A stretch of DNA of 64,000 bases from a virus. Location of the stretch: IMG/VR virus record IMGVR_UViG_3300024319_000005, positions 35,223-99,222 of that record. The stretch is one strand, 5' to 3'. A program made the position numbers and the translations under genes. This document shows positions 27,910 to 47,419 of this stretch, piece after piece. The notes beneath the pieces are model-generated. The model did not search any database. It was given only the letters and a program-made list of their open reading frames with translations, and was not told the origin of the DNA. Numbering within the stretch: position 1 is the stretch's first letter; every line of letters begins with the position of its first letter.

Positions 27910-28170
27910 ATGGATAGAAATAATTTTCATACTAAGACTGACTTAACTTATGATTGGATAATAAAGTCAAAGATAGCTACTGAGCAAGAAATTAGATTAG
28001 TTACTTCTATAATAGGTTATAATTTAGATTCTTTAAATGATATTATATTTGCTAGAACAGCTTATAAAGATATGACACAACATCCAGCAGGAGAAATACA
28101 GTCTGTAACAGAAGATCAAATATCTTCTCTATCTGAACCTATTAATAACATAGAATTTATAGCATGGTAA
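27910..28170 (+). CDS. Small unknown protein (86 aa)
   Basis: Soluble, helical in the middle (EQEIRLVTSIIGYNLDSLND). No named family. It overlaps the kinase-like gene by 7 bases, so the two are translationally coupled. Confidence 0.55.
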   Translation: MDRNNFHTKTDLTYDWIIKSKIATEQEIRLVTSIIGYNLDSLNDIIFARTAYKDMTQHPAGEIQSVTEDQISSLSEPINNIEFIAW

Positions 28171-28769
28171 ATATAAAACACAATCTTATCGGAATCTCTG
28201 GCAAAATCAGCTCAGGAAAAGATTTAGCAGGTAAGATATTAAACGATCTTTCAGGAAATATTTTTGAAAACAAAAAATTTGCAGATAAACTTAAAGATAT
28301 AGTTTGCTTACTTATTGGATGTACTAGAGAGCAATTAGAAGATAGAGAGTTTAAAGAAAAAGAACTCGGTGAAGAGTGGAGGCAATATTTTAATGACGAT
28401 TATGATTTAGTTTATGAAAAAGAAAGCACATTTTCTTCATTATTAACACCTCGTAAACTTCTACAACTTTTAGGTACTGAATGTGGTAGACAAATTATCC
28501 ATCCTAACATTTGGGTAAATGCTTTGTTTGCTGATTATACTCCTTTAACATCTTGGCTAGTAACAGATGTTAGATTCCCTAACGAATGCCAAGCTATTAA
28601 AAATAGAGGTGGTATTGTTATAAAAATAAATAGAGACTTTGATGTAGTAGACAACCATTCATCGGAAACAGCTCTAGACAATTACAATGGATTTGATTTT
28701 GTTGTAGATAACAATGGAAGTATAGATGACCTTACTAATAACTTAATAAAAATAATTAACAATGATTAA
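28164..28769 (+). CDS. Deoxynucleoside monophosphate kinase-like P-loop protein (201 aa)
   Basis: A P-loop-like motif is present at residues 13-20 (GKISSGKD) after a beta strand (NLIGIS). Further down, RKLLQLLGTECGRQI and WLVTDVRFPNECQAI match the T4 gp1/dephospho-CoA-kinase-like dNMP kinase group, in which VTDVRFPNE is a hallmark. It would phosphorylate dNMPs for DNA synthesis, in step with the ribonucleotide reductase genes at 48.5-52.1 kb. Overlaps both neighbours by 7-8 bases. Confidence 0.8.
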   Translation: MVNIKHNLIGISGKISSGKDLAGKILNDLSGNIFENKKFADKLKDIVCLLIGCTREQLEDREFKEKELGEEWRQYFNDDYDLVYEKESTFSSLLTPRKLLQLLGTECGRQIIHPNIWVNALFADYTPLTSWLVTDVRFPNECQAIKNRGGIVIKINRDFDVVDNHSSETALDNYNGFDFVVDNNGSIDDLTNNLIKIINND

Positions 28770-29031
28770 TTTCAAAAAGTATGATGTAGAAAATCCACAA
28801 GTGTGGTCACAGTTCAAAAGATTTGCATTTGAAGCTAAAGAAAAAGGCTTTAATAATTACTCTGCAAAAGGTATATTTGAATTGATTAGATGGCATACAG
28901 GAGTAAAAGGTACAGGTAATTATAAGTTATGTAATAACTATACACCTGATTATGCTAGAAAGATGATGAGAGAACACCCTGAGTTTGAGGGTTTCTTTAG
29001 GGTTAAACAACTTAAAGCTAAAAGATCGTGA
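28762..29031 (+). CDS. Conserved small phage protein (89 aa)
   Basis: The order VWSQFKRFAFEAKEKGFNNYSAK, then FELIRWHTGV, then NNYTPDYARKMMREHPEF, is a pattern I recall from many phage proteins without assigned function. It is basic and all-helical and could bind nucleic acid. It overlaps the kinase gene by 8 bases and the radical-SAM gene by 4. Confidence 0.65.
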   Translation: MINFKKYDVENPQVWSQFKRFAFEAKEKGFNNYSAKGIFELIRWHTGVKGTGNYKLCNNYTPDYARKMMREHPEFEGFFRVKQLKAKRS

Positions 29032-29873
29032 AGATAGTACCTTGGGTTAACAAAACGATAACACCTAAACCAAACGGTAGGAGCAGTGATTTTATTTCTG
29101 CTTCCTACATTTGGGGATGTAACGGTGGTTGTAAAAACTATTGTTATGTCTATCGTAATCAGAAGCAAACAGTAAATGTTGCTACCAATTTAGATCAAAT
29201 TGAAGCGGCTGTTACCAAACTAGCAAATAAATTGCCTTTGCACAAGCCACCTAATCAAATATCACAGAATGGTTTGTATTATCTTGATATTGGGTGTAAT
29301 TCTGATGTAGCACTATACAGTAAAAGAATTGAATTAGAAAGAATACTTAAATTTTATGACAATAATTTAAAACTTAACACTACTTTTGCTACTAAATACT
29401 CTAAATTACTGACACTAGATGTAAATCATTTTAATAAAAAACCTAGAGTTCGTGTATCATTGATGCCTGAACGACTAGCTACTGTATTAGAAAGTGGTTG
29501 TACATCAGTACCTGAACGTATTACTGACATAAAAAGATTACAAAGTCTTGGTTGGGAAGTACAGATTAATTTTAGTCCAGTTGTATTATATAATAACTGG
29601 CAAAGAGACTACAATGAGTTGTTTAAGATTATAGCTAATCAAGATATAGATGTACCTTGTGAAGTTATTATGTTAACAGGATCTGTAGCACCAAATATTC
29701 CTGAGTTTGAGCATAATTACTTGTTAAGTAATGAATTTCAAGAAGAAAAAATAACAAAATATGGTTCTAAAGCTAAAAGATATAACTATCATATGAAAAA
29801 AGGAGCTATAGAAAACTTTAAAACTATTTATTCAAAGTATTGGGATGTAAAAAACATCAGATACATTTTTTAA
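29028..29873 (+). CDS. Radical-SAM protein related to spore photoproduct lyase (281 aa)
   Basis: The cluster motif WGCNGGCKNYCYVYR at residues 29-43 places cysteines at 31, 35 and 39. The rest follows the spore photoproduct lyase group: RVRVSLMPERLA, a later Arg-Ile helix (ERITDIKRLQSLGW), VQINFSPVVLYNNW and QRDYNEL. Such enzymes use a 4Fe-4S cluster and S-adenosylmethionine to make a 5'-deoxyadenosyl radical, and the lyase repairs thymine spore photoproduct. The Cys spacing is C-x3-C-x3-C instead of the usual C-x3-C-x2-C. DNA repair or base modification is plausible, but the substrate is unknown. Confidence 0.8.
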   Translation: MKIVPWVNKTITPKPNGRSSDFISASYIWGCNGGCKNYCYVYRNQKQTVNVATNLDQIEAAVTKLANKLPLHKPPNQISQNGLYYLDIGCNSDVALYSKRIELERILKFYDNNLKLNTTFATKYSKLLTLDVNHFNKKPRVRVSLMPERLATVLESGCTSVPERITDIKRLQSLGWEVQINFSPVVLYNNWQRDYNELFKIIANQDIDVPCEVIMLTGSVAPNIPEFEHNYLLSNEFQEEKITKYGSKAKRYNYHMKKGAIENFKTIYSKYWDVKNIRYIF

Positions 29874-34081: not shown

Positions 34082-34723
34082 ATGAAAGTATACGTAATAG
34101 GTGGAGCTTTAAGTTACGCCAATATAGTAGATGAACCTAATATAGTTAATAATCCTGAAGATGCTGATGTAGCAATACTAACAGGTGGAGAAGATGTAAA
34201 TCCTGAACTTTACAATGAAATAGCACATTACACAACAAGCTTTAATACTAGTAGAGATGCTTATGAAATTTCTGAAGTAAATAAATGCTTAAAATTAGGA
34301 TTACCTATTATAGGTGTTTGTAGGGGTAGTCAATTAACTACAGTTATAAACGAAGGTAAATTAATACAAAATGTGGCAGGTCAACCTTATATTCATAAAG
34401 TAGTAGATGTACATTTAAATAAAGCTTATGAAGTAACTAGTACTCATCATCAAATGATGTTTCCTTTTAACTTAAATAGGACTAAGTATAAAGTTTTGGC
34501 TTTTGCTAAAAACTTAACTCATACATTTGAAGGACTACCTAAAGGCTTTAATAAGCCAGAAATAGAACCAGAGATTGTATATTATCCAGAAACTAATATG
34601 TTAGCAATTCAATCACATCCCGAGCATCTTGATGTAGGGAGTGAATTAAGAAATGTTTCTAACTATTATGTTTCAGCTTTAATTAAAAATGAGTTAAAGA
34701 ATAAATATACCATTGTTAATTAA
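34082..34723 (+). CDS. Class I glutamine amidotransferase-like / peptidase C26 protein (213 aa)
   Basis: The fold of gamma-glutamyl hydrolases is visible: TGGEDVNPELY (34-44), the nucleophile elbow GVCRGSQ with Cys80, and the His/Glu part SHPEH with His179 and Glu181. This is the PuuD/C26 type that cleaves gamma-glutamyl amide bonds or supplies ammonia. A second member of the same type lies at 40783, next to two amidoligases. A gamma-glutamyl compound is the likely substrate, which one is unknown. Its stop overlaps the SF2 helicase start. Confidence 0.85.
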   Translation: MKVYVIGGALSYANIVDEPNIVNNPEDADVAILTGGEDVNPELYNEIAHYTTSFNTSRDAYEISEVNKCLKLGLPIIGVCRGSQLTTVINEGKLIQNVAGQPYIHKVVDVHLNKAYEVTSTHHQMMFPFNLNRTKYKVLAFAKNLTHTFEGLPKGFNKPEIEPEIVYYPETNMLAIQSHPEHLDVGSELRNVSNYYVSALIKNELKNKYTIVN

Positions 34724-35828
34724 AAATAATATTATCGCAAAGAAAAAGAATATTAGAGACACAAGACAGTCTGAAGCAGTAAAAGCTTTTAAGAGAGGAG
34801 GCATACTTTTAGCTTCTCCTAGATTTGGAAAAACTAAAGTGTGTCTCGAAACTCTTAAAGGTAAGAACATTTTAATTATTATTCCAAACAATGATTTAAA
34901 GATTGGTTGGAAAAATGAAATTGAAAAGTGGAAATTTAAAGGTACTTATAAGATTCTAAACAAATCTAGTATTAAAAAAATTACCAATGACTACGATGCA
35001 ATCCTTATAGATGAAATAGATACTTTAAGCCCTGCTAATATAAAAGGGTTAAAGAAATACAAAAAGATCTTATATGGTTGCACAGGTAGTTTAGGTGAAA
35101 AGTCACAGGAAGCATTATCTAAAGAGTTAGGTATGAACATTGTATATGAGTATTCTATAGAACAAGCAGTTACTGAAGGTGTAATTGCAGACTACAGAAT
35201 ATATGTACACCCTGTTGATTTAGATAAGACAGACAACTATGTAGAAATAGGAAAGTGGACTACCACAGAAGAAAAGTCTTATGAATACTGGACTAAAAAA
35301 CTTAAAGAAGTATCTGCTAAAATTGCAAACTCATATAACAATCCATATAACTCTTTTAATATGAGACAACTTATTCAAGATAGAATGAGGTTAGGATTAA
35401 TGAGATCACAATATATTAGTAGATATTTATCTAAATTAAAAAAAGCTAAAGAAATAGTTGATAGTTTAGATAGATGTATTATCTTTACATCTAGAACAGA
35501 TAGAGCTGATTATCTTGGTAATGGTTATCATAGTAAATCAAAAGATGTTTTAGATAAGTTTTTATCAGGAAAATTAAGTAATATAGCAGTATGCAAATAT
35601 CTTAGTAGAGGATTTACAGATCCTACATTAAAGAAAGCAGTTATACACCACTTAACAAGTTCTCAAGAAGATGCAATTCAGAAGATTCTCAGGACTATGA
35701 ATTTAGATCCTGAAGGCAATGTAGCAGAGATTCATGTGTGTACTTATAGAAATACAAAAGACACAGATTGGACTACTAATGCATTAAAACTATTTAATCA
35801 AGATAAAGTTATATGGCTTGATAAATAG
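34713..35828 (+). CDS. SF2-type DNA helicase/translocase with TTG start (371 aa)
   Basis: Motif I reads SPRFGKT (residues 35-41) and motif II DEID (100-103). Motif Ia-like IIIPNNDL, a GCTGS motif III-like segment and C-terminal IIFTSRTDRADYLG, VCKYLSRGFTDP and LRTMNLDPEG-like motifs V-VI are visible, so both RecA-like lobes are present in compact form. No ATG lies in frame before the motifs. TTG at 34713, overlapping the upstream stop by 11 bases, is the best start. It probably remodels replication or recombination intermediates. Confidence 0.85.
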   Translation: MLIKNNIIAKKKNIRDTRQSEAVKAFKRGGILLASPRFGKTKVCLETLKGKNILIIIPNNDLKIGWKNEIEKWKFKGTYKILNKSSIKKITNDYDAILIDEIDTLSPANIKGLKKYKKILYGCTGSLGEKSQEALSKELGMNIVYEYSIEQAVTEGVIADYRIYVHPVDLDKTDNYVEIGKWTTTEEKSYEYWTKKLKEVSAKIANSYNNPYNSFNMRQLIQDRMRLGLMRSQYISRYLSKLKKAKEIVDSLDRCIIFTSRTDRADYLGNGYHSKSKDVLDKFLSGKLSNIAVCKYLSRGFTDPTLKKAVIHHLTSSQEDAIQKILRTMNLDPEGNVAEIHVCTYRNTKDTDWTTNALKLFNQDKVIWLDK

Positions 35829-35855
35829 TATTACGTAACCCTTAAAAGCAAAATT

Positions 35856-36359
35856 ATGAATTTAAACGCTGATTTAGAAATTAAGTTTTTAGAATGTGGT
35901 ATAGATATTGATGTAGGCTATAGTACTTTGCTTGGTGTACATTTCGACTTAAATGTAGAAACGTTTACATCTCAGCAGACTTTAATAAAGTTAGATCAAT
36001 GTAACCTTATTAATAAAAACTATAAGACAGGTCTATATGAAATAAATGTAGACATATTCAAAGAGCCAAATTTAGATTGGCTAGATGATTACAGAGGATT
36101 GTTTAGAGGTATCAGTCCTGGGTCGATGGGAGATCGACAAGGTGTTGCTAAAAAAATGAAAAAGTTCATGAAGACTAGCAAATATACACCAGAAGAAATA
36201 CTAGCGGCAACTAGCTGGTATATTAATAATACTGATCCTAGATATGTTATGAGAGCACATTACTTTATTGATAAGAATGGTAGTTCTACTTTAGGAGCAA
36301 CATTAGAAGAAGCCGATTTTGGCGAATTAACAGATGATCTATTTAATAATACATTATAG
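35856..36359 (+). CDS. Unknown protein in the replication block (167 aa)
   Basis: No named domain. The middle part (YRGLFRGISPGSMGDRQGV, then a Lys-rich helix) and the C-terminal SWYINNTDPRYVMRAHYFI could hold a helical DNA-binding unit. Sits between SF2 helicase and the DnaB-like helicase, where a helicase loader would be expected, but the sequence alone does not establish that. Confidence 0.6.
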   Translation: MNLNADLEIKFLECGIDIDVGYSTLLGVHFDLNVETFTSQQTLIKLDQCNLINKNYKTGLYEINVDIFKEPNLDWLDDYRGLFRGISPGSMGDRQGVAKKMKKFMKTSKYTPEEILAATSWYINNTDPRYVMRAHYFIDKNGSSTLGATLEEADFGELTDDLFNNTL

Positions 36360-36400
36360 ACTAACTTTAGATTGGAAGGAAAATTAGACATTAATATATT

Positions 36401-37444
36401 ATGGAAAGAATTAATCAGTTACAGGAGATTCATGTAAAGAAAAAAGATGGTATAAAAAATTATATACCTTTTGCTTTTCCTAAGATGTCATCCATGATTC
36501 CAGGTATTATAAAAGGTACTCCTTATATAATATCTGCAGGTACTGGTGTCGGTAAGACCCAGTTAACAAAATACTTAGCTGTCATTAACTCTATAGAGTA
36601 CGCTATAGAAAATAATGTAGATCTAAAAATATTATACTTTGCACTTGAAGAATCAATAGAAGAGTTTACAGATTCTCTGTTAACTTATCTTATACAAAAA
36701 GATTCAGGTGTACAGTATTCAGTATTAGATTTACAAGGTATTAGTGATAACGAAGTAGATTTTAATATAGTAAGAAAAAGTCAAGCTAAACTTGAACAGT
36801 TTTTAGACTATCTTGAAATTGTAGATTTTATATACAATCCTACTGGAATATTTAAGTATGTATATAACTACGCAGAAGCTAGAGGAACCCATGTTAAAGT
36901 AAACAAAGAAGGTGAAGAATATTATGACCATTATGTGCCAAATAACCCTGATGAGCACATTATTATAATATGTGATCACGTTAGTTTACTTAATACAGAA
37001 AAAGGTAACTCACAAATGCAGACTATTTTAAAATATTCTGTAGATTACTCTAGAAAAATGTTTACTAAAAAATTCAATTACTCATCAGTTATTGTACAAC
37101 AACAAGCAAACGTAGGTGAAGATATTGCCCATGCTAAAGCAAATGCTTTAGAGCCAAGGCTAAACAATCTTGCAGATGCTAAGTCAACAAAGAATGATGC
37201 ACTAATTGTATTAGGGGTCTTTGATCCTTTTAGACACGATAGTATAGTTGTAAAAAATAATTTTAGAAACATTAACTTAAAAAAATGGGCTTTTGATCAT
37301 GGTACAGATGCTCTTAGATCTATTAACATTATGAAAAACCGTTATGGTAATTCTAATAAGGTCATACTTTTTAAGTTTAATGGTGCTACAAATAATTTTA
37401 TTGAACTTACTAACGAAGATAGAGAAAAGTACAAATTTATTTAA
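36401..37444 (+). CDS. dnaB-like: Replicative DnaB-like helicase, RecA-fold only (347 aa)
   Basis: Walker A is GTGVGKT (Lys52, residues 47-53) following TPYIISA. Walker B is HIIIICDHVSLL. Downstream, VQQQANVGED and KNDALIVLGVFDP fit the DnaB C-terminal ATPase core, including the Gln sensor. The usual N-terminal primase-binding domain is absent. It is followed by a Sak4-like ATPase and an SSB-like protein. A replisome role is well supported by motifs and neighbourhood. Confidence 0.85.
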   Translation: MERINQLQEIHVKKKDGIKNYIPFAFPKMSSMIPGIIKGTPYIISAGTGVGKTQLTKYLAVINSIEYAIENNVDLKILYFALEESIEEFTDSLLTYLIQKDSGVQYSVLDLQGISDNEVDFNIVRKSQAKLEQFLDYLEIVDFIYNPTGIFKYVYNYAEARGTHVKVNKEGEEYYDHYVPNNPDEHIIIICDHVSLLNTEKGNSQMQTILKYSVDYSRKMFTKKFNYSSVIVQQQANVGEDIAHAKANALEPRLNNLADAKSTKNDALIVLGVFDPFRHDSIVVKNNFRNINLKKWAFDHGTDALRSINIMKNRYGNSNKVILFKFNGATNNFIELTNEDREKYKFI

Positions 37445-37459
37445 TTTAACAACAAACTT

Positions 37460-38137
37460 ATGACAAAAATCAAAAGTATTTGTGTAGACACATTAACGGC
37501 TATACAAGAACGTCAGTATGCAGCAGACAAGAAAAAGCCAGGTCACGATCAGTGGTTTGACTACGGAGTGACTATTGCTAATTTTGTAAATGAGCTAGGT
37601 AATCTTGGGTTTGAGATTGTCTTAGTACTAGGAGAACCTGGTACAGGAAAAAGCTCAGGTATGAGAACATTAGATCCAGGTACTAATATCTGGTATAATG
37701 CTGACAAGAAAAATCCTACTTGGATTGGTGGTAGAGAAGAGTATGGTAAGAAATTTAAACCTACTCCAAGACTACATCAACTTCCAAACACTTATGCTGA
37801 CATTATTAACCATCTTAAAGCTGGTATAGAAGCTGATATGTTTGATGATGAGAAAGTAGCATTTGTTAGTGGTCATACAGAAACTTACAAATCTGGTTTA
37901 GAAACTAGAGTAAGACTAAAAACCCTAGGTAAATTAGCAAACAAAATGCAGATTGAAGGTAATTTAGAACATGTACTATACTCTGTAGTTAAAAAGAATG
38001 ATTCTACAGGTGATGCAGAATTTTTACTAGAAACTCAAAACAACGGTAGTAATACTGCACGTAGTTCTCAAGGTATGCTTGAAGGAGTAATACCTAACGA
38101 TTACAAACTAATTCTAGAAGCAATTAGAAATTATTAA
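37460..38137 (+). CDS. AAA_24 / Sak4-like P-loop ATPase (225 aa)
   Basis: VLVLGEPGTGKSSG contains the Walker A (Lys64, Ser65). A later strand VAFVSGHTET is in the Walker B position with an acidic/His variant, and the overall length fits the RecA-like single-strand annealing ATPases of the Sak4/AAA_24 type found in phages. It lies directly before an SSB-like gene, a typical pairing since Sak4 acts with SSB. Recombination or replication restart is the likely function. Confidence 0.75.
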   Translation: MTKIKSICVDTLTAIQERQYAADKKKPGHDQWFDYGVTIANFVNELGNLGFEIVLVLGEPGTGKSSGMRTLDPGTNIWYNADKKNPTWIGGREEYGKKFKPTPRLHQLPNTYADIINHLKAGIEADMFDDEKVAFVSGHTETYKSGLETRVRLKTLGKLANKMQIEGNLEHVLYSVVKKNDSTGDAEFLLETQNNGSNTARSSQGMLEGVIPNDYKLILEAIRNY

Positions 38138-38160
38138 TTAATATTTAAATTTAGAAAAAT

Positions 38161-39006
38161 ATGATAGAAGGAATAAACACTTCAACAGCCTCAAGTGGAG
38201 GCTCTTTTGACTTATACACAGGGTTAGGTCAAGTAACAATTAAAAAAGTAAATCCAACTTCAGAAGAGTTTGAAGCAATTACAGGGTATGCTAGAAATAT
38301 TAATTATAATCCTATTGGCGAAAACAATCTTATGCCAGTAAGAATCTTAGTACACAATGAAGACGCAGGTTTTCAATTAGTAGACTTTTTACTTGGTAAT
38401 ACTCCAGTAGTATCTAGTACAGGTAAAACTCAATACATTAGTACCAAAGGTAACTTTACATATGGCGCAAGTGAAGATGCGATAACTTCTAACCCTAATA
38501 TGTCTTGGTTTGGTGAAATAGCAAGACCAGCATTTGTAGGTGAAGAAAATATTATTTCATTTTTCAAGCAAGGTCTTGGTATTGATAAAGATACTGAGTT
38601 TTTAAATGAAATTATTAACAAAGCACAGTATAACCCAGCAAGTGTATATTCGGGAAATGCTGATAGTTTAAATTTCTTAGCTAACATTTTTACACAAAAT
38701 CAAATGTCAGTTATTGTACCTTTTGGTGTAAAAGAAACTGTAAACTCAGAAGGACAAAATAGAAATTACCAACAAGTAGTAACTAAAGGTAATTGCTTTT
38801 TCCACATGAGCAGTATGAATTATGCTAAGAAGACTTACCAGAAAATGCTTGCAAGACAAATTGAAGCTGGTTACCCTATTAAATTAGCAACTACAGTAGA
38901 TTTTGAAGTATATACTCCAGAAGCTCCAAAAGTAGGACCAACATTAGGGTCTGTAGATGTAACACCATCATCAGTAGGGCAAGACTTTTCTAATATTCCA
39001 TTTTAA
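38161..39006 (+). CDS. Single-stranded-DNA-binding-like protein with SSB tip (281 aa)
   Basis: The C-terminus ends DFSNIPF, preceded by a flexible Pro/Gly/Ser-rich linker (TPEAPKVGPTLGSVDVTP). This closely resembles the SSB tip (acidic residues then IPF) that recruits partner enzymes. The body is beta-rich, with no OB-fold that I can align with confidence. It is between a Sak4-like ATPase and the primase, and is followed by a strong terminator, as expected for a protein made in excess. Confidence 0.7.
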   Translation: MIEGINTSTASSGGSFDLYTGLGQVTIKKVNPTSEEFEAITGYARNINYNPIGENNLMPVRILVHNEDAGFQLVDFLLGNTPVVSSTGKTQYISTKGNFTYGASEDAITSNPNMSWFGEIARPAFVGEENIISFFKQGLGIDKDTEFLNEIINKAQYNPASVYSGNADSLNFLANIFTQNQMSVIVPFGVKETVNSEGQNRNYQQVVTKGNCFFHMSSMNYAKKTYQKMLARQIEAGYPIKLATTVDFEVYTPEAPKVGPTLGSVDVTPSSVGQDFSNIPF

Positions 39007-39017
39007 TTAATTAACAT

Positions 39018-39053
39018 ATAAGAGAGAGGGGTAACTCCCTTTCTCTTATTTTA
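39018..39053 (+). terminator. Strong intrinsic terminator after the SSB-like gene
   Basis: ATAAGAGAGAGGG pairs with the mirrored CTCCCTTTCTCTTAT over 13-14 pairs (one G-T), loop GTAA, then TTTT. Confidence 0.85.
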
Positions 39054-39065
39054 AAAAACTTATTT

Positions 39066-39581
39066 ATGACAACAATTTTTATGTTAATTTTAATAATAGT
39101 TGTAATTCTAGCAATTACTCGTATTTTTATGAGTAGGAAAATAACAAACCCAGAAGAACCAATAGTACCTTCTGATTGGACTGGAGATACACCTTTATTT
39201 GAAGGAGTCCCTATAGTAAAGAAAATGCCTACTCAAAGGTATATGCCTATTACTAAAAAAACTATAGTTTTAAAATGTGGACTTACACCTTCTGAATTTG
39301 AAAAAGCTTTTATAGACGGAGACGTAAGAAATAGTAATGCAACAGTTATTAAATGCATTGCTATTGAAATTAAAAATATAGTTTTAGACTATAGAAGTAA
39401 AGCAATAGAACCTATTTATTTAATGTGTACTAAAAAAGATTTAGCTGCAAAATTAGGAGTTAGCACTACTAGTTTAAATAAATACTTTAAAGGTGATACG
39501 CTTAGTTTAAATTCAGAAATAGAAAAATTATTAGAATACGATGATCAATGGAATATCTTTAAACTTAGACTCCCTACTTAG
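39066..39581 (+). CDS. Membrane-anchored helix-turn-helix protein (171 aa)
   Basis: The N-terminus is a single membrane helix (IFMLILIIVVILAITRIFM, residues 4-22). The C-terminal third has a helix-turn-helix pattern (KKDLAAKLGVSTTSLNKYFKG). A DNA-binding domain tied to the membrane could tether phage DNA or sense the envelope. It overlaps the primase gene by 41 bases. Domain calls are by pattern only. Confidence 0.65.
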   Translation: MTTIFMLILIIVVILAITRIFMSRKITNPEEPIVPSDWTGDTPLFEGVPIVKKMPTQRYMPITKKTIVLKCGLTPSEFEKAFIDGDVRNSNATVIKCIAIEIKNIVLDYRSKAIEPIYLMCTKKDLAAKLGVSTTSLNKYFKGDTLSLNSEIEKLLEYDDQWNIFKLRLPT

Positions 39582-40479
39582 GAAGTACCAAGAAGATATA
39601 TTTGCTCAATACTTAGGAGAATATCCTAATCTTTCTAAAAGATACAAAAGTTTATTGAGATCAGGTGATCATAAATCAGGATGTAGGTTAAATTACCACC
39701 AAGGTATATTGTTTTTTATAGACAATGCTACTTATAATGGTAAATTAGCATTTACTGCATTTGATATAATAAAAATAAGAGAAGGACTTACTGGTGTACA
39801 AGAACTAATTGATACAGTTGTAAACACCTTTAAACCTTCCCTTGTTACTCATACAACAGAGAAAGAACAAAACATTAGTATTTTTACTAAAGATGTTCCT
39901 TTTACTGATAGTAATAATTTATTATCTCATTTACAATTAACTCCACATATTTTAAACTCTGATCCTGAAATACATTTAGTAAAAGCGTACTGGACTAATA
40001 CAAAAAGTGACAATGAAATTTTAAAAAATAGATTTCATGATCCTAATGTAATACCCACTTTAGCTTATAAGTTCCCTAATGGAGCTGTAAAATTGTATTT
40101 TAGAGGTCAAGAGTTTAAATGGTGGAGTAATTGTACTGATGAAATATTTAACAGTTGTTACTTACCTGAGTTTAATGATTCACACATTGTTGTTACTAGC
40201 AGTAAGTTAGATGCTCTTATACTATATAAAGTATTTGGAGTACAAACTATTGCAAAACAACAAGAGTACGGCAGTCTAAATTTAGATATTAGTAATTTTA
40301 AATCTAGATATGTGCTGTATGATAATGATAGAACTGGTATGGTTGAAGGAGGCAAATTAGCTTCTTCTTTAAACGCAGTACAGTTATTTTTACCAAAAGG
40401 TAATGATACTGCAGATTTAATTATAAAAGATTTTATAACACTAAAAACATTTACAAATGATATATTATGTAAAATATAG
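39541..40479 (+). CDS. dnaG-like: DnaG-like primase with TOPRIM domain (312 aa)
   Basis: The N-terminal part has the pattern SLLRSGDHKSGCRLNYHQG followed by LFFIDNAT, as in DnaG-type primases of Bacteroidota phages, but without the zinc-binding cysteines. The TOPRIM half shows VVTSSKLDALILYKVFG, AKQQEYG and VLYDNDRTGMVEGGKLA, which carries the DxD-type acidic residues. It likely makes RNA primers for the polymerase encoded at 31122. It overlaps genes on both sides. Confidence 0.82.
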   Translation: MINGISLNLDSLLRKYQEDIFAQYLGEYPNLSKRYKSLLRSGDHKSGCRLNYHQGILFFIDNATYNGKLAFTAFDIIKIREGLTGVQELIDTVVNTFKPSLVTHTTEKEQNISIFTKDVPFTDSNNLLSHLQLTPHILNSDPEIHLVKAYWTNTKSDNEILKNRFHDPNVIPTLAYKFPNGAVKLYFRGQEFKWWSNCTDEIFNSCYLPEFNDSHIVVTSSKLDALILYKVFGVQTIAKQQEYGSLNLDISNFKSRYVLYDNDRTGMVEGGKLASSLNAVQLFLPKGNDTADLIIKDFITLKTFTNDILCKI

Positions 40480-40795
40480 AGATAAGTATGCTTCTGTTAC
40501 TAATTTAAGAGGCGATATTGAAGATTATTTAGAAAGAAGAGATTGGAATTTAGATATTTATTGTGAATTACGTAAAAAGTCAATTAGTTTACAAAAAGAA
40601 GACTTAGATGGTCCTGAAATTTATACAAGAGAAATAGACAGACCAAATTTTGAGATACAAGTCCCTGTAAATATAGATAATTTAAACTTAGTCAATGGCG
40701 ATGATTTTGAGTTAACTAGAGATGATGCAAGGATTACAATATTAAAATTAAACAATTATTTAAAAACTATAACAAATTTCGTATGTGTAAAGTAG
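40457..40795 (+). CDS. Unknown small protein (112 aa)
   Basis: Starts MIYYVKYRDKYASVTNLRGDIEDYL, ends in a helix (LKLNNYLKTITNFVCVK). No known domain. It overlaps the primase by 23 bases and the amidotransferase by 13, so it bridges the replication genes and the amide cassette. Confidence 0.6.
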   Translation: MIYYVKYRDKYASVTNLRGDIEDYLERRDWNLDIYCELRKKSISLQKEDLDGPEIYTREIDRPNFEIQVPVNIDNLNLVNGDDFELTRDDARITILKLNNYLKTITNFVCVK

Positions 40796-41487
40796 GACTA
40801 ATTTACCCTAATTTAAATTATCAAGGAAAGTATGAAGTTAATGGTGCTTATGTAGATTATTTTTCTAAGTTTGGAGAAATTGTACCTATAACACCTGAAT
40901 GTCCATACGTAGAAGACCTAGATGTCTTAGTTTTGACTGGAGGTGCTGATATTAATCCTATTAGATATGGTGATTTTCCGAAAGAATCAGGAGCACCTAA
41001 TCTAGAATATGATTATTTTGAACAAGTAATGCTAAGTTTGTATATAGATGCTAATATTCCTATTGTAGGTATATGTAGAGGTATGCAAGCTTTGTTTGTA
41101 CATTACGGTGGTAAATTAAATCAACATGAAGATTTACCAACAAGTACATCTAAAGGTAATTATCTTACCCAGCATTTAAATATGGGGAGTAGAGGTAAAA
41201 TTGTAGAACACTTAAAGCTAACACCTAGCTTTAACCACTTGAAGAAACTAAAGAAAGTTAATCTAGGAATTAATTCTTTACATCATCAGACTGCAAATTT
41301 AAAAACTATGCCTAAAGAGATAGTTCCTATTGGTTATTCTGAAGAGAATAAAAACTTAGAGCTATTTACAGTAAAGAATAAAAACATTTTAGCTTTTCAA
41401 GGACATGTTGAAGAGTTAAGCAATACAAAATTATTTGATCATTTAATAAAAAATACTATCAATGGAAAATTGGCTAATTGGAACTGA
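40783..41487 (+). CDS. Class I glutamine amidotransferase / C26 protein, first gene of the amide cassette (234 aa)
   Basis: TGGADINP (52-59), nucleophile elbow GICRGMQ with Cys98, NSLHHQ, and QGHVEE with His208 and Glu210 match the gamma-glutamyl hydrolase type. The gene overlaps the following amidoligase by 26 bases. Together with the second C26 gene at 34082, this suggests a pathway in which a gamma-glutamyl amide is made and trimmed or in which ammonia is delivered from glutamine to a ligase. Confidence 0.88.
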   Translation: MCKVGLIYPNLNYQGKYEVNGAYVDYFSKFGEIVPITPECPYVEDLDVLVLTGGADINPIRYGDFPKESGAPNLEYDYFEQVMLSLYIDANIPIVGICRGMQALFVHYGGKLNQHEDLPTSTSKGNYLTQHLNMGSRGKIVEHLKLTPSFNHLKKLKKVNLGINSLHHQTANLKTMPKEIVPIGYSEENKNLELFTVKNKNILAFQGHVEELSNTKLFDHLIKNTINGKLANWN

Positions 41488-42304
41488 TTATGAATTTGGA
41501 ATCTCTAAAAATGGAGAACCTATTTCAATCGTAGGGAAAATAGGAGGTACAAAAAACGAACCTCTAGATATTGGGAATGGATGTGCAAGACAAGAAGATA
41601 ATGTAAATGCAGAGGTAACACAACCCCCTGTTAATAATTTTAAAGATTTTGTTAAGTACATTGAATATGGACTAACGACTATTAAGTCAATGGTTCCTAG
41701 TCACGACCTTAACTTTAATTCATTAGAGATATACTCCGATGAAGAATTAAACACGTATGAAGCGCAAGTATTTGGCTGTGAAAGCAGTTTTGATGTCTAC
41801 GCTAGAGGATTAAGCAAGCCAGCAGTGGCTACTAACCCTAATTTAAGAAGTGCTGGTTTTCATATACACTTTGGTAATGACAAAATAGCTAATAACAATC
41901 AAGAAATGGAAAAGCTTGTAAAGTTATTTGATAAATATGTTACTATACCATCTATGTTAATAGACCCTGAAAAAGGTCGTAGAGAACTTTATGGTAGAGC
42001 AGGTGAATTTAGAATGAAATCATACGGTTTAGAATGTAGACAACTTGGTTCATTCTTTTTATCTGATTTTAGACTTATTGAATGGGTATGGGAAGGAGTT
42101 CAAAAATGTATTACTCAGTATGAGCTTGGAGAAGATTTAAATTTAGATTCTATGTTTAATAGAAATGATATAAATGATTCTTGTATTGCTGAAGATATTA
42201 TTAATGGATATGATTTACAAGCTGCTAAAGAGTTTTGTGACGCTAATAATATTAATTATTTAAAAAAAGAAATATGCAAAGAGCTTATGTCTATGGTAGC
42301 TTAA
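41462..42304 (+). CDS. Phage COOH-NH2 ligase type 2 (phiEco32-like amidoligase, 280 aa)
   Basis: The family's glutamine-synthetase-like signature is present: GTDYEFG with Glu11, NVNAEVTQPP with Glu51, RSAGFHIHFG with His134 and His136, and RELYGRAGEFRMKSYGLE around 174-191. Such enzymes use ATP to join an amino group to a carboxylate. Overlaps both the C26 amidotransferase and the cyclotransferase-like gene, indicating one translational unit. Known relatives are in phages predicted to modify peptides or cell-wall components. The real substrate is unknown. Confidence 0.85.
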   Translation: MENWLIGTDYEFGISKNGEPISIVGKIGGTKNEPLDIGNGCARQEDNVNAEVTQPPVNNFKDFVKYIEYGLTTIKSMVPSHDLNFNSLEIYSDEELNTYEAQVFGCESSFDVYARGLSKPAVATNPNLRSAGFHIHFGNDKIANNNQEMEKLVKLFDKYVTIPSMLIDPEKGRRELYGRAGEFRMKSYGLECRQLGSFFLSDFRLIEWVWEGVQKCITQYELGEDLNLDSMFNRNDINDSCIAEDIINGYDLQAAKEFCDANNINYLKKEICKELMSMVA

Positions 42305-42612
42305 GAAAAGGACACTATAATTTTAAAAGCTTTTCAGGTATTTCTTATATTAAAACAACTAAACTAAAAGGATGGGATTTATTTTCATTAGGCTCTTATC
42401 CTGGAATAAAACCAGGTAAGGGTACTTTAGTTGTTGATTTAGTAGAAATGGATAATGAAACTTATAAACAAGTCTTAAAAATGGAATTAGGAGCAGGCTA
42501 TTCAGAAATAGATATTACTATTGATGGAATATCAGGTAAATTTTTCCCTTATAATTATAATTTAACAGAGTTAGTACCATCAGGAGATTGGTCTGACTAT
42601 AAAAAATATTAA
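42274..42612 (+). CDS. Gamma-glutamylcyclotransferase-like (AIG2-type) protein (112 aa)
   Basis: AYVYGSLRKG near the N-terminus is the YGSL substrate-binding loop, and MELGAGYSE carries the catalytic Glu in the family's LE-x-GY context. These enzymes release 5-oxoproline from gamma-glutamyl amines or peptides. It overlaps the amidoligase by 31 bases and is one base from the class II amidotransferase, so it is probably a pathway partner, perhaps removing gamma-glutamyl caps made by the ligases. Confidence 0.83.
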   Translation: MQRAYVYGSLRKGHYNFKSFSGISYIKTTKLKGWDLFSLGSYPGIKPGKGTLVVDLVEMDNETYKQVLKMELGAGYSEIDITIDGISGKFFPYNYNLTELVPSGDWSDYKKY

Positions 42613-42613
42613 A

Positions 42614-43981
42614 ATGTGTGGAATTAGTGGAGCTATAGGCTCTAAAATAGACATGGAAAAAGTTAAACTATTAGGTTTACTTAATGAAGATCGAGGCGGT
42701 GACGCTGTAGGTATTTATGCTAATAAAACAGTATCAAAAACAATTAAAAGTTATTATCATCTATTACAACAAGATGACTTTCCTAAAAAAGCAAAGGGGA
42801 TAGCCTTAAATCACTCTAGAAAAAGCTCTAGTGGAGGTAATAACATATTAAATGCACAGCCATTAATGGTAGATAATGATGTATTTGTATTAAATGGTAC
42901 TGTAAAAAATATAAATACTTTAGAAAGAATTACAGGAATAGAAGAAGAGCAGTTAGATAATGATACAGCTTATTTGTTTAGGTTAATGAGAGCTGGTAAC
43001 ACTGAATGGTTAAAATACTATACAGGTGGAGCTACTTTTGTATACAGACATAAAACTAAAACTACGTTTTGGGTCGGTGCTGCTAATGGAAAAGTAGAAA
43101 GACCTTTAAGTTTTTGTTATGTAAATGGTACTATGTATTTTTCATCTTTAGAACGAGATTTAAAATTAGTATCAGGAAATAATAAGATTACTCATTTTAA
43201 AGTAAATACATTAATTACTGTAGATAATGAAGGTAATATTGTATTAGAAGAACCTATTGATAGAACTATACCTCATATTGAGCTTAGTAATTTACAAAAG
43301 AAACTTCTTGCTTGTCCTTATAATGAAAGCTATTCTACTTTAGAGTCTTTAAACGCTGGTAATAATGTAGTAATATTTTGTGGAGGTGCTTATTATTTAA
43401 ATAATGAGTTTTATACAGGTAAAGCTAAACTTGATAAGCATTCTAAACTTATTAAAACTACTATGCAAGACTCTATGGCAACTTATTTCTTTAAAAATGG
43501 CATATTAGTAAAAGACAATTTCTTTAAAAGTGGGTATAATAACAGTCATTTAGCATTGTATTCTAATACAGGTTATGACGAACCTACAATTGAAGATAGA
43601 ATTGTATCTAATGCTCATACTATTGGGTTAAGTGATTCAGATTATGGATTAATACAAGATTCTATGAGTTCAGAAATGTTATATTATAGTGCAGATTTAC
43701 ATAGTCATTTTTACAATGGAGCTTTAGCTGATGGAATTATTAGTCCTATTGGTTCTTCAACTCATTACCATTTTAGTAATGGTCATTTTGTAAAGATGTC
43801 TTATTACTCTCCAGAAGAATTTATGGACAAAGTAGAAGATCTACATAATGATATAGATAATTTACTATATGAATTTGATTTAGAAGATTTAGATGTCGAA
43901 GGAGCATCAATATTTGAAACTTTAAAACAATACAAACAATATGTTAAGAATAGTAACGAAGAGTGGAAGAGTATTACTTAA
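42614..43981 (+). CDS. Class II (Ntn) glutamine amidotransferase with long C-terminal domain (455 aa)
   Basis: It starts MCGISGAIG, with Cys2 as the N-terminal nucleophile after Met removal, then NHSRKSSSGGNN and VLNGTVKN, the substrate and oxyanion loops of GlnB/GatA-type glutaminases. The first 200 residues are this domain. The remaining 250 residues are not familiar. It would hydrolyse glutamine and pass ammonia to a ligase. The 41-base overlap with the amidoligase that follows fits a two-protein complex. Confidence 0.88.
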   Translation: MCGISGAIGSKIDMEKVKLLGLLNEDRGGDAVGIYANKTVSKTIKSYYHLLQQDDFPKKAKGIALNHSRKSSSGGNNILNAQPLMVDNDVFVLNGTVKNINTLERITGIEEEQLDNDTAYLFRLMRAGNTEWLKYYTGGATFVYRHKTKTTFWVGAANGKVERPLSFCYVNGTMYFSSLERDLKLVSGNNKITHFKVNTLITVDNEGNIVLEEPIDRTIPHIELSNLQKKLLACPYNESYSTLESLNAGNNVVIFCGGAYYLNNEFYTGKAKLDKHSKLIKTTMQDSMATYFFKNGILVKDNFFKSGYNNSHLALYSNTGYDEPTIEDRIVSNAHTIGLSDSDYGLIQDSMSSEMLYYSADLHSHFYNGALADGIISPIGSSTHYHFSNGHFVKMSYYSPEEFMDKVEDLHNDIDNLLYEFDLEDLDVEGASIFETLKQYKQYVKNSNEEWKSIT

Positions 43982-45383
43982 AAGTGCTTGTACTCTAATT
44001 AATAATGAATGGTATGAAGTAGGTAACCGTAATAAATTTGAAAGTGGTGAAGTATATCAAATTGGAGCAAAGTTTAATTTTGCTAATGAACTATACTGGA
44101 ACGCTAATAAGAAAAGATATTACAGACTTACTGAAAATATAGCATATGGGTATAGCAAAACTTTTAATAATTTATGCCATTTTAAAAAGACAAAGTATAC
44201 AGTTAAAATAGATAGGTATAAAGAGTTGTTTCTAGAAGATTATAGAGATTTTCCTACTATGAACTATAATGGTAGATTTAACATTTTTATGGAAGGTGAA
44301 CCATCTGCTTATGTAGTAAGTTATGATGATTACAATACAAGGCTGTATGGTGCTGATGATAACATAATGTTTGATAAAGCTTGGGCAGCATACCAAATAA
44401 AAACTCAAGTAGCTGCCGCAGAAGAAAATGTACCTAAAGTTAACATAGTGCCAGAACTATTTGATTATAGTTTTGGAGTAGAGTTTGAAACTTCTTCAGG
44501 ATCATTACACAGTACTATGTTAGAAGATTCTTTCTTAATACCTGTAAAAGATGGTAGTATTGATGGCTATGAGTATATTAGTGTGCCTATGCAAAATGAA
44601 TTAGACACTTTAAAAACTCAATGCCACTATTTATCTAGACAATGTAATGTAAATAAAAAGACAAGTACTCATATACACTTAGGTAACTTACCTAGAACTA
44701 AAGAGTTTGCACTTTCTTTTTACATACTTATGTATAGATTTCAAAATGAGATCAATGCAATGTTTCCACCACTTAAAAAGTTACTTAGATCTTTAGATGA
44801 TCACGGTAACAAAGAAGCAAAGGATTACTGTAAGTTTCTACCTGAGTTAAATTTAATGTATGGTAGGCATTATATAGATAGAAATGGAGAAATTGACCAA
44901 GATGAGTTAGATGAAGGATACAGAGATCTTTGGACTTTCTGGAATGATGGAGAAGCTCCTAGTGAAAATTTCAACCCACAAAATAGAACACACCGCAAAG
45001 CTCATTTAGCTAAATGGAACTATGTAAATAGGTATTCTATTGTGAATATGAACAATTATTTTTTTACTAATTCTAGAACTATTGAGTTTAGATACCATGA
45101 AGGTACATTAAACTTTGGTAAAGTTAGTAATTGGATTTTATTGAACATAGCGTTTGTAAAATTTGCTGAAAATCATGCAAAAGAAATACTTAGTAGTAAT
45201 ACTAAGATTACATTTAAGGATATTTTATCCGAACTAGGTAATAAAAGCCTAGAAACACATTTAAGTGATTATATTTACGAAAGAAAAACTGAAATGAGTA
45301 GACATTACTCTGCACAGAATCCTTTTTATCAAATATATGACTTAGATAAAACAAAAGAATGCACATGGCAAAATCTGAAGTAG
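43941..45383 (+). CDS. Amidoligase type 2 (GCS/GS fold, 480 aa)
   Basis: The catalytic part begins near residue 175: FGVEFET (Glu181, Glu183), DGSIDGYEYIS (Asp204), TSTHIHLGN (His244, His246), and RTIEFRYHEGTLN, the Amidoligase_2 signature. The first 170 residues are an extra N-terminal domain. The fold is that of glutamine synthetase/gamma-glutamylcysteine synthetase, forming amide or isopeptide bonds with ATP. Its direct partner is the class II amidotransferase upstream. Confidence 0.87.
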   Translation: MLRIVTKSGRVLLKSACTLINNEWYEVGNRNKFESGEVYQIGAKFNFANELYWNANKKRYYRLTENIAYGYSKTFNNLCHFKKTKYTVKIDRYKELFLEDYRDFPTMNYNGRFNIFMEGEPSAYVVSYDDYNTRLYGADDNIMFDKAWAAYQIKTQVAAAEENVPKVNIVPELFDYSFGVEFETSSGSLHSTMLEDSFLIPVKDGSIDGYEYISVPMQNELDTLKTQCHYLSRQCNVNKKTSTHIHLGNLPRTKEFALSFYILMYRFQNEINAMFPPLKKLLRSLDDHGNKEAKDYCKFLPELNLMYGRHYIDRNGEIDQDELDEGYRDLWTFWNDGEAPSENFNPQNRTHRKAHLAKWNYVNRYSIVNMNNYFFTNSRTIEFRYHEGTLNFGKVSNWILLNIAFVKFAENHAKEILSSNTKITFKDILSELGNKSLETHLSDYIYERKTEMSRHYSAQNPFYQIYDLDKTKECTWQNLK

Positions 45384-45823
45384 CAGCCAAAAGAGGTAGA
45401 GTAAATAGGAGAAAAGGACACGATTATGAAAGACTAATTGTGAGAGTACTTAAAGATTTAGGCTGGACTAAAGCAATGTCTACAAGAGCATGTAGTAAAC
45501 TACTTGACGATTGTAAAATAGATATTGCACCTAATGGTCCAGTTACTGATAATTTAGATTTTCTAATACAATGTAAAGCAGGGTATATAAAGCAAAGACC
45601 CAAAGCTGATGTTGAATTTAGAAAAATGCTTGAAGGTTTGAGCGAGTATTTTCCTTCCGATCATACAATATTTAAAGCAAAAAAGTTTTTAATGCACAAG
45701 TTTGGCAGAAAAGATGAAGAACATCTTGTCACAATGACATTTAAAGACTGGGTTGCAATAATGCAAGAGTTAGTCTCATTAAGAGAAAAACATGTGGAGC
45801 AAGAAAAACCAGATAACAATTAA
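45359..45823 (+). CDS. PDDEXK-type nuclease, Holliday-junction-resolvase-like (154 aa)
   Basis: The pattern KGHDYERLIVRVL, then KLLDDCKIDIA and DFLIQCKAGYI matches a PD-(D/E)XK fold (Glu in helix 1, Asp in strand 2, Gln-x-Lys in strand 3). ATG codons at 45359 and 45365 are both possible starts, the second giving MAKSEVAAKRG. It may resolve branched DNA in recombination, and it interrupts the amide cassette between an amidoligase and the ATP-grasp gene. Confidence 0.75.
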   Translation: MHMAKSEVAAKRGRVNRRKGHDYERLIVRVLKDLGWTKAMSTRACSKLLDDCKIDIAPNGPVTDNLDFLIQCKAGYIKQRPKADVEFRKMLEGLSEYFPSDHTIFKAKKFLMHKFGRKDEEHLVTMTFKDWVAIMQELVSLREKHVEQEKPDNN

Positions 45824-46451
45824 ACCAGGCATTCAATATCAAAACAAAAGCTTACAATACCTATACCCTAGTATTAGATTAACTAACAAAAGCATTTATG
45901 CTTACTTGTTAAATAATTTTGAAATACTAGGGGTAGGTGTAGGCGATTTGGCATACGATATTAAATCTACTTTAGACGATACTTTTTATATCCTTGTTGA
46001 TGTTTATGGAGTCTATAAAAATGGATCCTACATACAAGAAGATTACTATAGAAGAAAGTTTGAAACAGGATTAGCTATGATTAAACAAAAAAAAGGGTTT
46101 GTAACAGACTATACTTTTAAAGATAATCAACATATGATAGTAATAAATTTACCATACTCTAATATGAAGATTGATTTTTTACAAGGTAACTATAGTTGTA
46201 TTTACCCAGAGCCTCAAGAAATTGATTTATTATTTCCAAAAAGTAGAATGCTAAAAAAGATTGAAGTTAGAAATCAAGATAATTTAGTACTGCATAAAGA
46301 CGTACAAGCTAGACCTAAGTTTAGGGAGCTGTTACGCAATGAATTTGGATTTACTGAAGATGTTGAAAGAGATGTCGAATTTGATTTACCACCTTTATTT
46401 AAAGAAGAGGTGTTTAATCACCATTTATTAACAGAATTAATGACATTCTAA
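45792..46451 (+). CDS. Unknown protein before the ATP-grasp ligase (219 aa)
   Basis: No recognised domain. Mixed alpha/beta with a conserved-looking centre (FLQGNYSCIYPEPQEIDLLFP) and acidic C-terminus. Overlaps the nuclease by 32 bases and shares a base with the ATP-grasp start, so it is probably a partner or substrate-binding protein of that ligase. Function unknown. Confidence 0.6.
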   Translation: MWSKKNQITIKPGIQYQNKSLQYLYPSIRLTNKSIYAYLLNNFEILGVGVGDLAYDIKSTLDDTFYILVDVYGVYKNGSYIQEDYYRRKFETGLAMIKQKKGFVTDYTFKDNQHMIVINLPYSNMKIDFLQGNYSCIYPEPQEIDLLFPKSRMLKKIEVRNQDNLVLHKDVQARPKFRELLRNEFGFTEDVERDVEFDLPPLFKEEVFNHHLLTELMTF

Positions 46452-47419
46452 TGAACCAAAATATAATGCCTAATAAAGAAAAGCTAATACTAACTGGTAA
46501 GCATGGAAGACCTTCTACTATAGAAGCTTTTAAAGATTGCCAGTTAGGAGAATTAGTACAGCGTAGGCAGTTTACAAAGAAAAATGGAAAGTTTGTTAAG
46601 TACTATAGAGTATTTGATCAGCTAAACAAAATTAATTACAGAAAGCATAAAACAAATAGAATAAATGCAAAAGATTCTATAGTTCTTAGGTGGGGTACAC
46701 AAGAACCTTTTGATACTAATAACAAATCAATAGTTTACAATAAGATACCTGGTCTACAAAATGCAACTAATAAAGGCTTATCTAGAGTCTTAATGCATAA
46801 AGCAGGAGTTAGAGTACCTACAATTATTACACCTAAAAATATAACAGAAGATCATCTACCTATTATTAGTAGACCTTTTGTACATAGTAAAGGTAAAAAC
46901 TTTATAGTATTAAATACTATTAAAGAATTCAATGCACATTATAGTCCTGCAACTCATTACTATGCAGAGTTTATAGATAAGCAGTTAGAATTTAGAGCTC
47001 ATGTTGGTCATGGTAAAGTACTAAGGCTAATGGCAAAGCAAAATCCTAACAATGGTAACTTAGCTTGGAATATTGCCGCCAATAGAGGAGGTAATGTAGC
47101 AGAAGATGTAGGAGGGTTTAAAGTTATTCGTTGGAATAACGCAGAACCTTATTTAGATGTGCTAAAACAATCAGTACATGCAGTTGAAGCTTTAGGATTA
47201 GACTGCGGTGGGGTAGATGTAATGTTTAAAGATGGTAAAGCTTATGTTCTTGAAGTAAATACAGCTCCTACTTTAAACTCATGTCCTACAACAGCTAAAC
47301 GATGGGGCATGTATTGGAATTGGTTATTTAATTCTGAGTCTAGAAGAGATCATTATGATTGGAGAATATGGCAAAAAGCTAAATCTTTCTTTTTTAAAAA
47401 CGAACAATTAATAAATTAA
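46451..47419 (+). CDS. ATP-grasp ligase, RimK-like (322 aa)
   Basis: The ATP-grasp core is visible as GLSRVLMHKAG, then YAEFIDKQLEFRAHV, and GGVDVMFKDGKAYVLEVN, with Asp256, Glu268 and Asn270 as metal-binding residues. These enzymes activate a carboxylate as acyl phosphate and join it to an amine, as RimK does with glutamate. It ends the amide cassette. Phages with COOH-NH2 ligases often carry a similar ATP-grasp gene. The acceptor is unknown. Confidence 0.88.
   Translation: MNQNIMPNKEKLILTGKHGRPSTIEAFKDCQLGELVQRRQFTKKNGKFVKYYRVFDQLNKINYRKHKTNRINAKDSIVLRWGTQEPFDTNNKSIVYNKIPGLQNATNKGLSRVLMHKAGVRVPTIITPKNITEDHLPIISRPFVHSKGKNFIVLNTIKEFNAHYSPATHYYAEFIDKQLEFRAHVGHGKVLRLMAKQNPNNGNLAWNIAANRGGNVAEDVGGFKVIRWNNAEPYLDVLKQSVHAVEALGLDCGGVDVMFKDGKAYVLEVNTAPTLNSCPTTAKRWGMYWNWLFNSESRRDHYDWRIWQKAKSFFFKNEQLIN

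Follow-up and report, generated by a model that had tools for sequence, protein, structure and literature searches.

The window analyzed here, a 64,000-nucleotide stretch spanning bases 35223–99222 of the 99,222-base IMG/VR virus record IMGVR_UViG_3300024319_000005, carries a complete and probably active version of an amidoligase cassette that is widespread in phages. The host of this cassette is a crAss-like virus, and the cassette lies in its early/replication arm. Seven genes within 34082–47419 encode two Peptidase_C26 proteins (C26), a COOH-NH2 ligase, a GGACT protein, a class II glutamine amidotransferase (GAT-II), an Amidoligase_2 enzyme, and an ATP-grasp ligase, all with intact catalytic residues. 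The COOH-NH2 ligase, Amidoligase_2, GAT-II, and ATP-grasp genes form a cluster within the early region of this tailed phage. A preliminary description had named these families and reported a tightly packed layout. The layout was confirmed: all of the open reading frames (ORFs) are on the + strand (Table 1), and neighbors mostly overlap by 1–41 nt, being otherwise 1 nt apart. The families were assigned by comparing Pfam profile scores with curated cut-offs; all named families passed, the ATP-grasp ligase barely and as ATP-grasp_3, and a PHROGs scan was in agreement.

The COOH-NH2 ligase scored 37.1 bits against PF14395 (cut-off 25) and matched PHROG 3815 at 1.6e-60. Its alignment contains 26 invariant columns, among them D9, E11, H134, H136, R184, E191, and R193. 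For Amidoligase_2, the PF12224 score was 35.8 bits (cut-off 22) and the match to PHROG 2443 was 6.7e-21. Residues G179, E181, E183, H244, H246, and E382-F383-R384 are invariant, and the ExE, HxH, and EFR motifs are kept; one alignment of this family was too divergent for use in scanning. The acidic, His, and Arg positions of both enzymes are typical of carboxylate–amine ligases resembling gamma-glutamylcysteine synthetase (GCS-like). Comparison with solved structures by sequence gave no convincing match to either family. The ATP-grasp ligase scored 23.3 bits against ATP-grasp_3 (cut-off 23.2) and matched PHROG 2599, labelled 'ribosomal protein S6 glutaminyl transferase', at 9.9e-23. Residues E180, R182, H184, D256, E268, and N270 are invariant, and among solved structures the protein comes closest to alpha-L-glutamate ligases (2e-10), followed by D-Ala-D-Ala ligases. 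The protein failed the RimK cut-offs of both Pfam (16.3 vs 21) and TIGR00768 (33.3 vs 143.4). The earlier term 'RimK-like' therefore holds as a resemblance: the enzyme may work like RimK, but it is not classed as RimK.

The detached C26 copy at 34082, already noticed in the preliminary description, proved to be a genuine family member, with 62.9 bits against PF07722 (cut-off 20.5) and a 1.8e-34 match to PHROG 7218; GVCRG at 78 and QSHPE at 177 preserve its Cys-His-Glu triad. The triad is also present in the copy at 40783 (76.3 bits; GICRG at 96, QGHVE at 206), for which the closest solved chains are Lin1909, the 'probable glutamine amidotransferase' 7d4r, and PuuD. Both proteins are nearest to gamma-glutamyl-amide hydrolases, yet they score far under the equivalog cut-offs for PuuD (24.0–24.5 vs 266 bits) and gamma-glutamyl-CDP-amidate hydrolase (36.3–38.9 vs 250 bits). 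Extra C26 copies are frequent in crAss-like cassettes. The GGACT protein reached 42.2 bits against PF06094 (cut-off 22.8), and its nearest solved structure is YtfP. It contains YGSLRKG at 7 and MELGAGY at 70, the latter with the catalytic Glu as assigned from a four-row alignment.

GAT-II scored 34.4 bits against PF13522 (GATase_6, cut-off 27), with C2, R69, N94, G95, and D117 invariant in its alignments. In this family, the Cys following the initiator Met is the nucleophile, Arg and Asp hold the amino-acid moiety of glutamine, and Asn-Gly forms the oxyanion hole; the roles of these glutamine- or gamma-glutamyl-recognizing residues are known from GlmS and PurF. The AlphaFold model has a whole-model pLDDT of 79.8, and Foldseek matched its N-terminal domain to the glutaminase domains of GlmS, PurF, and EgtC. 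Given the retained residues and these matches, GAT-II could supply ammonia or, by analogy with EgtC, cut gamma-glutamyl bonds. Its C-terminal domain could not be identified from PDB matches, since these rest on the glutaminase domain.

When the COOH-NH2 ligase served as the query of a protein search, 306 phage records were returned, none of them reaching 60% identity, and a profile scan of viral contigs gave 348 matching stretches. Iterated family profiles were applied to 80 of these loci, 57 of which had enough flank; 35 were non-redundant. COOH-NH2 ligase, Amidoligase_2, and GAT-II were present in 35/35, which holds by construction for the COOH-NH2 ligase used to pick the loci, but not for the other genes. 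ATP-grasp was found in 31/35, C26 in 29/35 (at least two copies in 12/35), and GGACT in 16/35, and the gene order is shuffled from locus to locus. The linkage is near-obligate and far beyond chance, and these counts reject a chance assembly. Both points on which the preliminary description had staked its reading were thus borne out, as the catalytic residues align in every family and the genes co-occur in other phages.

The same set is found in isolated lytic phages from different families, including Cellulophaga phi14:2, cr108_1, phage tf, Cronobacter GAP52, Citrobacter CVT22, CW02, and RIO-1. In these and in Leptolyngbya phage Lbo-JY46, the COOH-NH2 ligase, GAT-II, and ATP-grasp genes accompany Amidoligase_2 in varied orders; phage tf also has GGACT, without C26. 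IMG/VR contains one near-identical contig and one relative that is 59% identical in Amidoligase_2. Among 84,980 species-representative cellular genomes, a scan with a single pattern, which may miss distant relatives, located the COOH-NH2 ligase in two loci. Both are contigs of metagenome-assembled genomes (Pseudomonadota and Patescibacteria) with the whole C26, COOH-NH2 ligase, Amidoligase_2, GAT-II, and ATP-grasp set (L094, L095) and are therefore probably misbinned or host-associated phage DNA. The COOH-NH2 ligase is nearly confined to viruses. Amidoligase_2, GAT-II, and ATP-grasp correlated strongly with one another in their distances (rho 0.70–0.80), but the phage primase correlated equally with the three (0.79–0.85); we therefore rejected co-evolution as proof of one pathway, as it shows only long vertical residence.

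Two further observations concern the relatives. A conserved protein of about 200 residues with an R.p.rQwkRg motif (phrog_4877) lies between the two amidoligases in podovirus-type cassettes (L008 6777–7358, L007 6798–7376) and occurs in 10/35 loci. It matches nothing in Pfam, and its profile resembles none of the six enzyme families; the protein is absent from the window and is possibly a substrate or scaffold. In Lbo-JY46 (L006 1–7983), PncB- and PrsA-like genes, possibly of an NAD-related pathway, directly precede the cassette, and there are three C26-family genes.

Table 1. Positions of the cassette genes and bystanders in the window, and of GAT-II genes with a predicted N-terminal helix in related loci
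Feature	Length (aa)	Position	Strand	Family	Remark
Peptidase_C26 copy 1, class I glutamine amidotransferase-like hydrolase	213	34082..34723	+	PF07722, PHROG 7218	detached from cassette
Peptidase_C26 copy 2	234	40783..41487	+	PF07722	predicted gamma-glutamyl-amide hydrolase
phiEco32-type COOH-NH2 ligase	280	41462..42304	+	PF14395, PHROG 3815	predicted carboxylate-amine ligase, gamma-glutamylcysteine synthetase-like fold
GGACT/AIG2-like gamma-glutamyl(amine) cyclotransferase	112	42274..42612	+	PF06094	
Class II glutamine amidotransferase (Ntn-type GAT-II)	455	42614..43981	+	PF13522	unassigned C-terminal domain
Amidoligase_2 enzyme	480	43941..45383	+	PF12224, PHROG 2443	
RusA-like nuclease	154	45359..45823	+	PHROG 244	
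Unknown protein	219	45792..46451	+	PHROG 14962	
ATP-grasp ligase	322	46451..47419	+	ATP-grasp_3, PHROG 2599	nearest RimK/alpha-L-glutamate ligase branch
Helix-bearing GAT-II, L005		7811-9727			
Helix-bearing GAT-II, L022		4318-6201			
Helix-bearing GAT-II, L053		10779-12806			
Helix-bearing GAT-II, L068		10805-12772			
Helix-bearing GAT-II, L074		10782-12902			

Consulted passages of the literature name the cassette a putative peptidoglycan modification module and tie it to superinfection exclusion or lysis preparation, citing Hardies et al. 2013 and Iyer et al. 2009 as sources (PMC5498523, PMC11945000, PMC10580990). The earlier statement that related sets were predicted to modify the cell wall agrees with these passages, where peptidoglycan modification and the superinfection block stand as predictions. 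The coexistence of three ligase types, to which the preliminary description had drawn attention, is not special to this phage: it turned out to be the standard composition of such cassettes and was described in print earlier. For SU10, a phiEco32 relative, mass spectrometry of a preparation that was PEG-precipitated but not CsCl-purified revealed the ATP-grasp, GAT-II, and YtfP-like proteins (PMC4281155); these proteins are therefore made during infection.

The window shares the enzyme families, the tight early-region cluster, and the proximity to replication genes with the module of RIO-1, PSA-HP1, and LUZ24-like and phiEco32-like phages. It differs in its gene order (C26, COOH-NH2 ligase, GGACT, GAT-II, Amidoligase_2, nuclease and unknown protein, ATP-grasp), in having a second C26 gene 6 kb upstream, and in lacking phrog_4877, which recurs in podovirus-type cassettes. 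Phages phi14:2 and cr108_1 (Crassvirales, Steigviridae) are crAss-like like the window, and their COOH-NH2 ligase, GAT-II, Amidoligase_2, and ATP-grasp genes adjoin the primase, but their proteins are only 22–32% identical to those of the window. In the loci read, phi14:2 lacks C26 and cr108_1 lacks GGACT, whereas the window has both; GAT-II of phi14:2 has a membrane helix that the window protein does not. In ergothioneine (EgtA/EgtC), putrescine (PuuA/PuuD), and butirosin (BtrJ/BtrG) metabolism, an ATP-dependent ligase forms a gamma-glutamyl amide, which a hydrolase or cyclotransferase later removes. The window is alike in principle but is not a member of these systems, with scores far under the equivalog cut-offs where models exist.

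A shared theme of gamma-glutamyl chemistry suggests itself, and the earlier proposal that the enzymes jointly make and trim gamma-glutamyl or isopeptide bonds fits these families. Our preferred reading, held with slightly less than even confidence, is that the cassette acts through gamma-glutamyl/amide chemistry on a cytoplasmic or membrane-bound cell-envelope peptide. We infer an order of reactions, a gamma-glutamyl linkage, an acceptor, and a benefit as follows. Early in infection, the COOH-NH2 ligase, Amidoligase_2, and ATP-grasp would spend ATP to activate carboxylates and would join amino-acid units, probably glutamate and partly via the gamma-carboxylate, to an amine-bearing acceptor. 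GAT-II and C26 would either split gamma-glutamyl amides or set ammonia free from glutamine, and pyroglutamate would form as GGACT takes off a gamma-glutamyl cap. A peptidoglycan precursor would be the likeliest acceptor, and the change would block superinfection or ready the cell for lysis.

A clue to the site of action came from GAT-II of about 15 crAss-like loci, including phi14:2, in which a transmembrane helix is predicted at the N-terminus, shortly before the catalytic Cys (examples in Table 1). These genes start with ATG, in most cases no more than about 50 nt from the ligase gene before them. A hydrophobic helix of about 19 residues is followed on its C-terminal side by basic residues (K/R) and then by ...L-x-C-G at the catalytic Cys. 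By the positive-inside rule, the K/R residues place the enzyme domain in the cytoplasm, at the inner membrane face. No initiator Met immediately precedes the Cys; removal of a propeptide would therefore be needed to free its amino group. A lipobox was rejected as an explanation of this N-terminus, because basic residues stand between the hydrophobic segment and the Cys and because the conserved Leu occupies position −2 instead of −3. The predicted helix supports action near the inner membrane, without proving it. In a bolder and rather doubtful version, a branch of crAss-like phages would assemble the cassette on the inner side of the cytoplasmic membrane, with GAT-II as an anchored pro-enzyme whose helix ends about 10 residues before the Cys; cleavage before the Cys of ...L-x-C-G would activate and may release it, and amide ligation would be coupled to lipid-linked envelope precursors. 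The window would hold a soluble variant. No mention of a GAT-II membrane helix was found in the abstracts and selected passages searched.

Several findings weigh against action on an envelope peptide. GAT-II of the window begins with MCGISG and has no membrane helix, and none of the other cassette proteins is consistently membrane-bound. In the loci read, the cassette genes are never beside a peptidoglycan synthesis gene, and the portions of the literature consulted contain no demonstrated substrate or product. Because the scores lie under the Pfam cut-off for RimK, and far below those of the RimK and PuuD-type NCBIfam models, the nearest named enzymes do not reveal the substrates. The genes evolve jointly no more strongly than they do with the primase, which likewise provides no independent evidence of one pathway.

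The label and closest relatives of the ATP-grasp ligase recall protein tagging, in which this enzyme and the two amidoligases would attach glutamyl or other aminoacyl units to some protein of the host or the phage, such as RNA polymerase or a ribosomal or capsid protein, and the hydrolases would edit the tag. For other phage ATP-grasps, aminoacyl tagging of host proteins has been put forward (PMC4431377, PMC7824862). We regard this as unlikely: apart from the failed RimK cut-offs, a RimK-type reaction needs neither two GCS-like ligases nor gamma-glutamyl hydrolases, and no constant substrate gene accompanies the cassette, the phrog_4877 protein being limited to under a third of the loci. A pathway with no macromolecular acceptor, in which a gamma-glutamylated amine or peptide metabolite is built and then deprotected as by PuuA/PuuD, EgtA/EgtC, or BtrJ/BtrG, is improbable to a similar degree. 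That a GCS-like ligase goes together with a GAT-II hydrolase follows the EgtA/EgtC logic, EgtC is among the structural neighbors of GAT-II, C26 resembles PuuD and gamma-glutamyl-CDP-amidate hydrolase, and GGACT is a YtfP-resembling member of the AIG2-like family. However, all equivalog scores are far too low, a dedicated amine source or transporter was not seen, and GGACT is absent from about half of the cassettes.

Amino-acid-bearing bases are known in other phages, and the arm that holds the cassette also contains genes for dNMP kinase-like (window 28164) and spore photoproduct lyase-like (29028) proteins, as would suit a cassette that hypermodifies phage DNA by attaching amino acids to a modified base. 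Such hypermodification is very improbable. No thymidylate synthase/hydroxymethylase-family gene was found in the virus record, which may be incomplete, and the DNA of the cassette-bearing phage tf was cut by RsaI, HpaI, EcoRV, SmaI, and HaeIII and cloned (PMC3517423). An anti-phage defence system was rejected, as PADLOC gave no model match for nine proteins.

Two genes inside the cassette are probably replication or recombination genes outside the pathway, judging from their relatives. The nuclease matches the RusA-like resolvases of PHROG 244 (1.4e-7), and in phi14:2 a RusA-like gene among the replication genes is also near the cassette. The preliminary description had this nuclease as the only interruption, but the 219-residue protein also seems to be one. 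Its relatives occur in three cassette loci (L011, L013, and L015, the first two being one contig) and in Flavobacterium Fpv-type phages; in Fpv1 the gene stands between an exonuclease and a DNA-binding protein, with no cassette gene inside 6 kb. A wider profile search yielded no further relatives, and with a pLDDT of 44 the structure predicted by AlphaFold was of no use. The few cassette relatives and the exonuclease neighbor led us to reject this protein as a pathway member.

The DNA polymerase of the virus has its best full-length matches in crAss001 and other crAss-like phages, besides Lbo-JY46. Directly upstream of the cassette, a 312-residue gene product is a homologue of the crAss-like DNA primase, and this gene is directly preceded by one for a 171-residue protein whose N-terminal helix is very strongly hydrophobic (39066–39581; KD 3.0). 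Inspection of the ORFs revealed ribonucleotide reductase-like genes downstream. The cassette genes of the window are not preceded by any visible Shine-Dalgarno motif. Further upstream are the deoxynucleoside monophosphate (dNMP) kinase-like protein (28164–28769; phrog_139, 7.9e-49) and the spore photoproduct lyase-like protein (29028–29873; PF20903, 50.7 bits), the latter with a GTG start and a cysteine cluster near its N-terminus.

The combination of genes is already known, and the window is an intact, well-supported crAss-like instance of it. What is added here is the near-absence of the COOH-NH2 ligase from cells, the low likelihood of DNA hypermodification, and the predicted GAT-II helix in crAss-like relatives. 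The cassette is spread over hundreds of phage genomes, and cultured carriers exist in phage tf, LUZ24-like and phiEco32-like phages, and Cellulophaga phi14:2. The interest thus lies in the function of the cassette rather than in the gene combination, and the membrane-anchored GAT-II of crAss-like phages is a specific clue to the site of cassette action.

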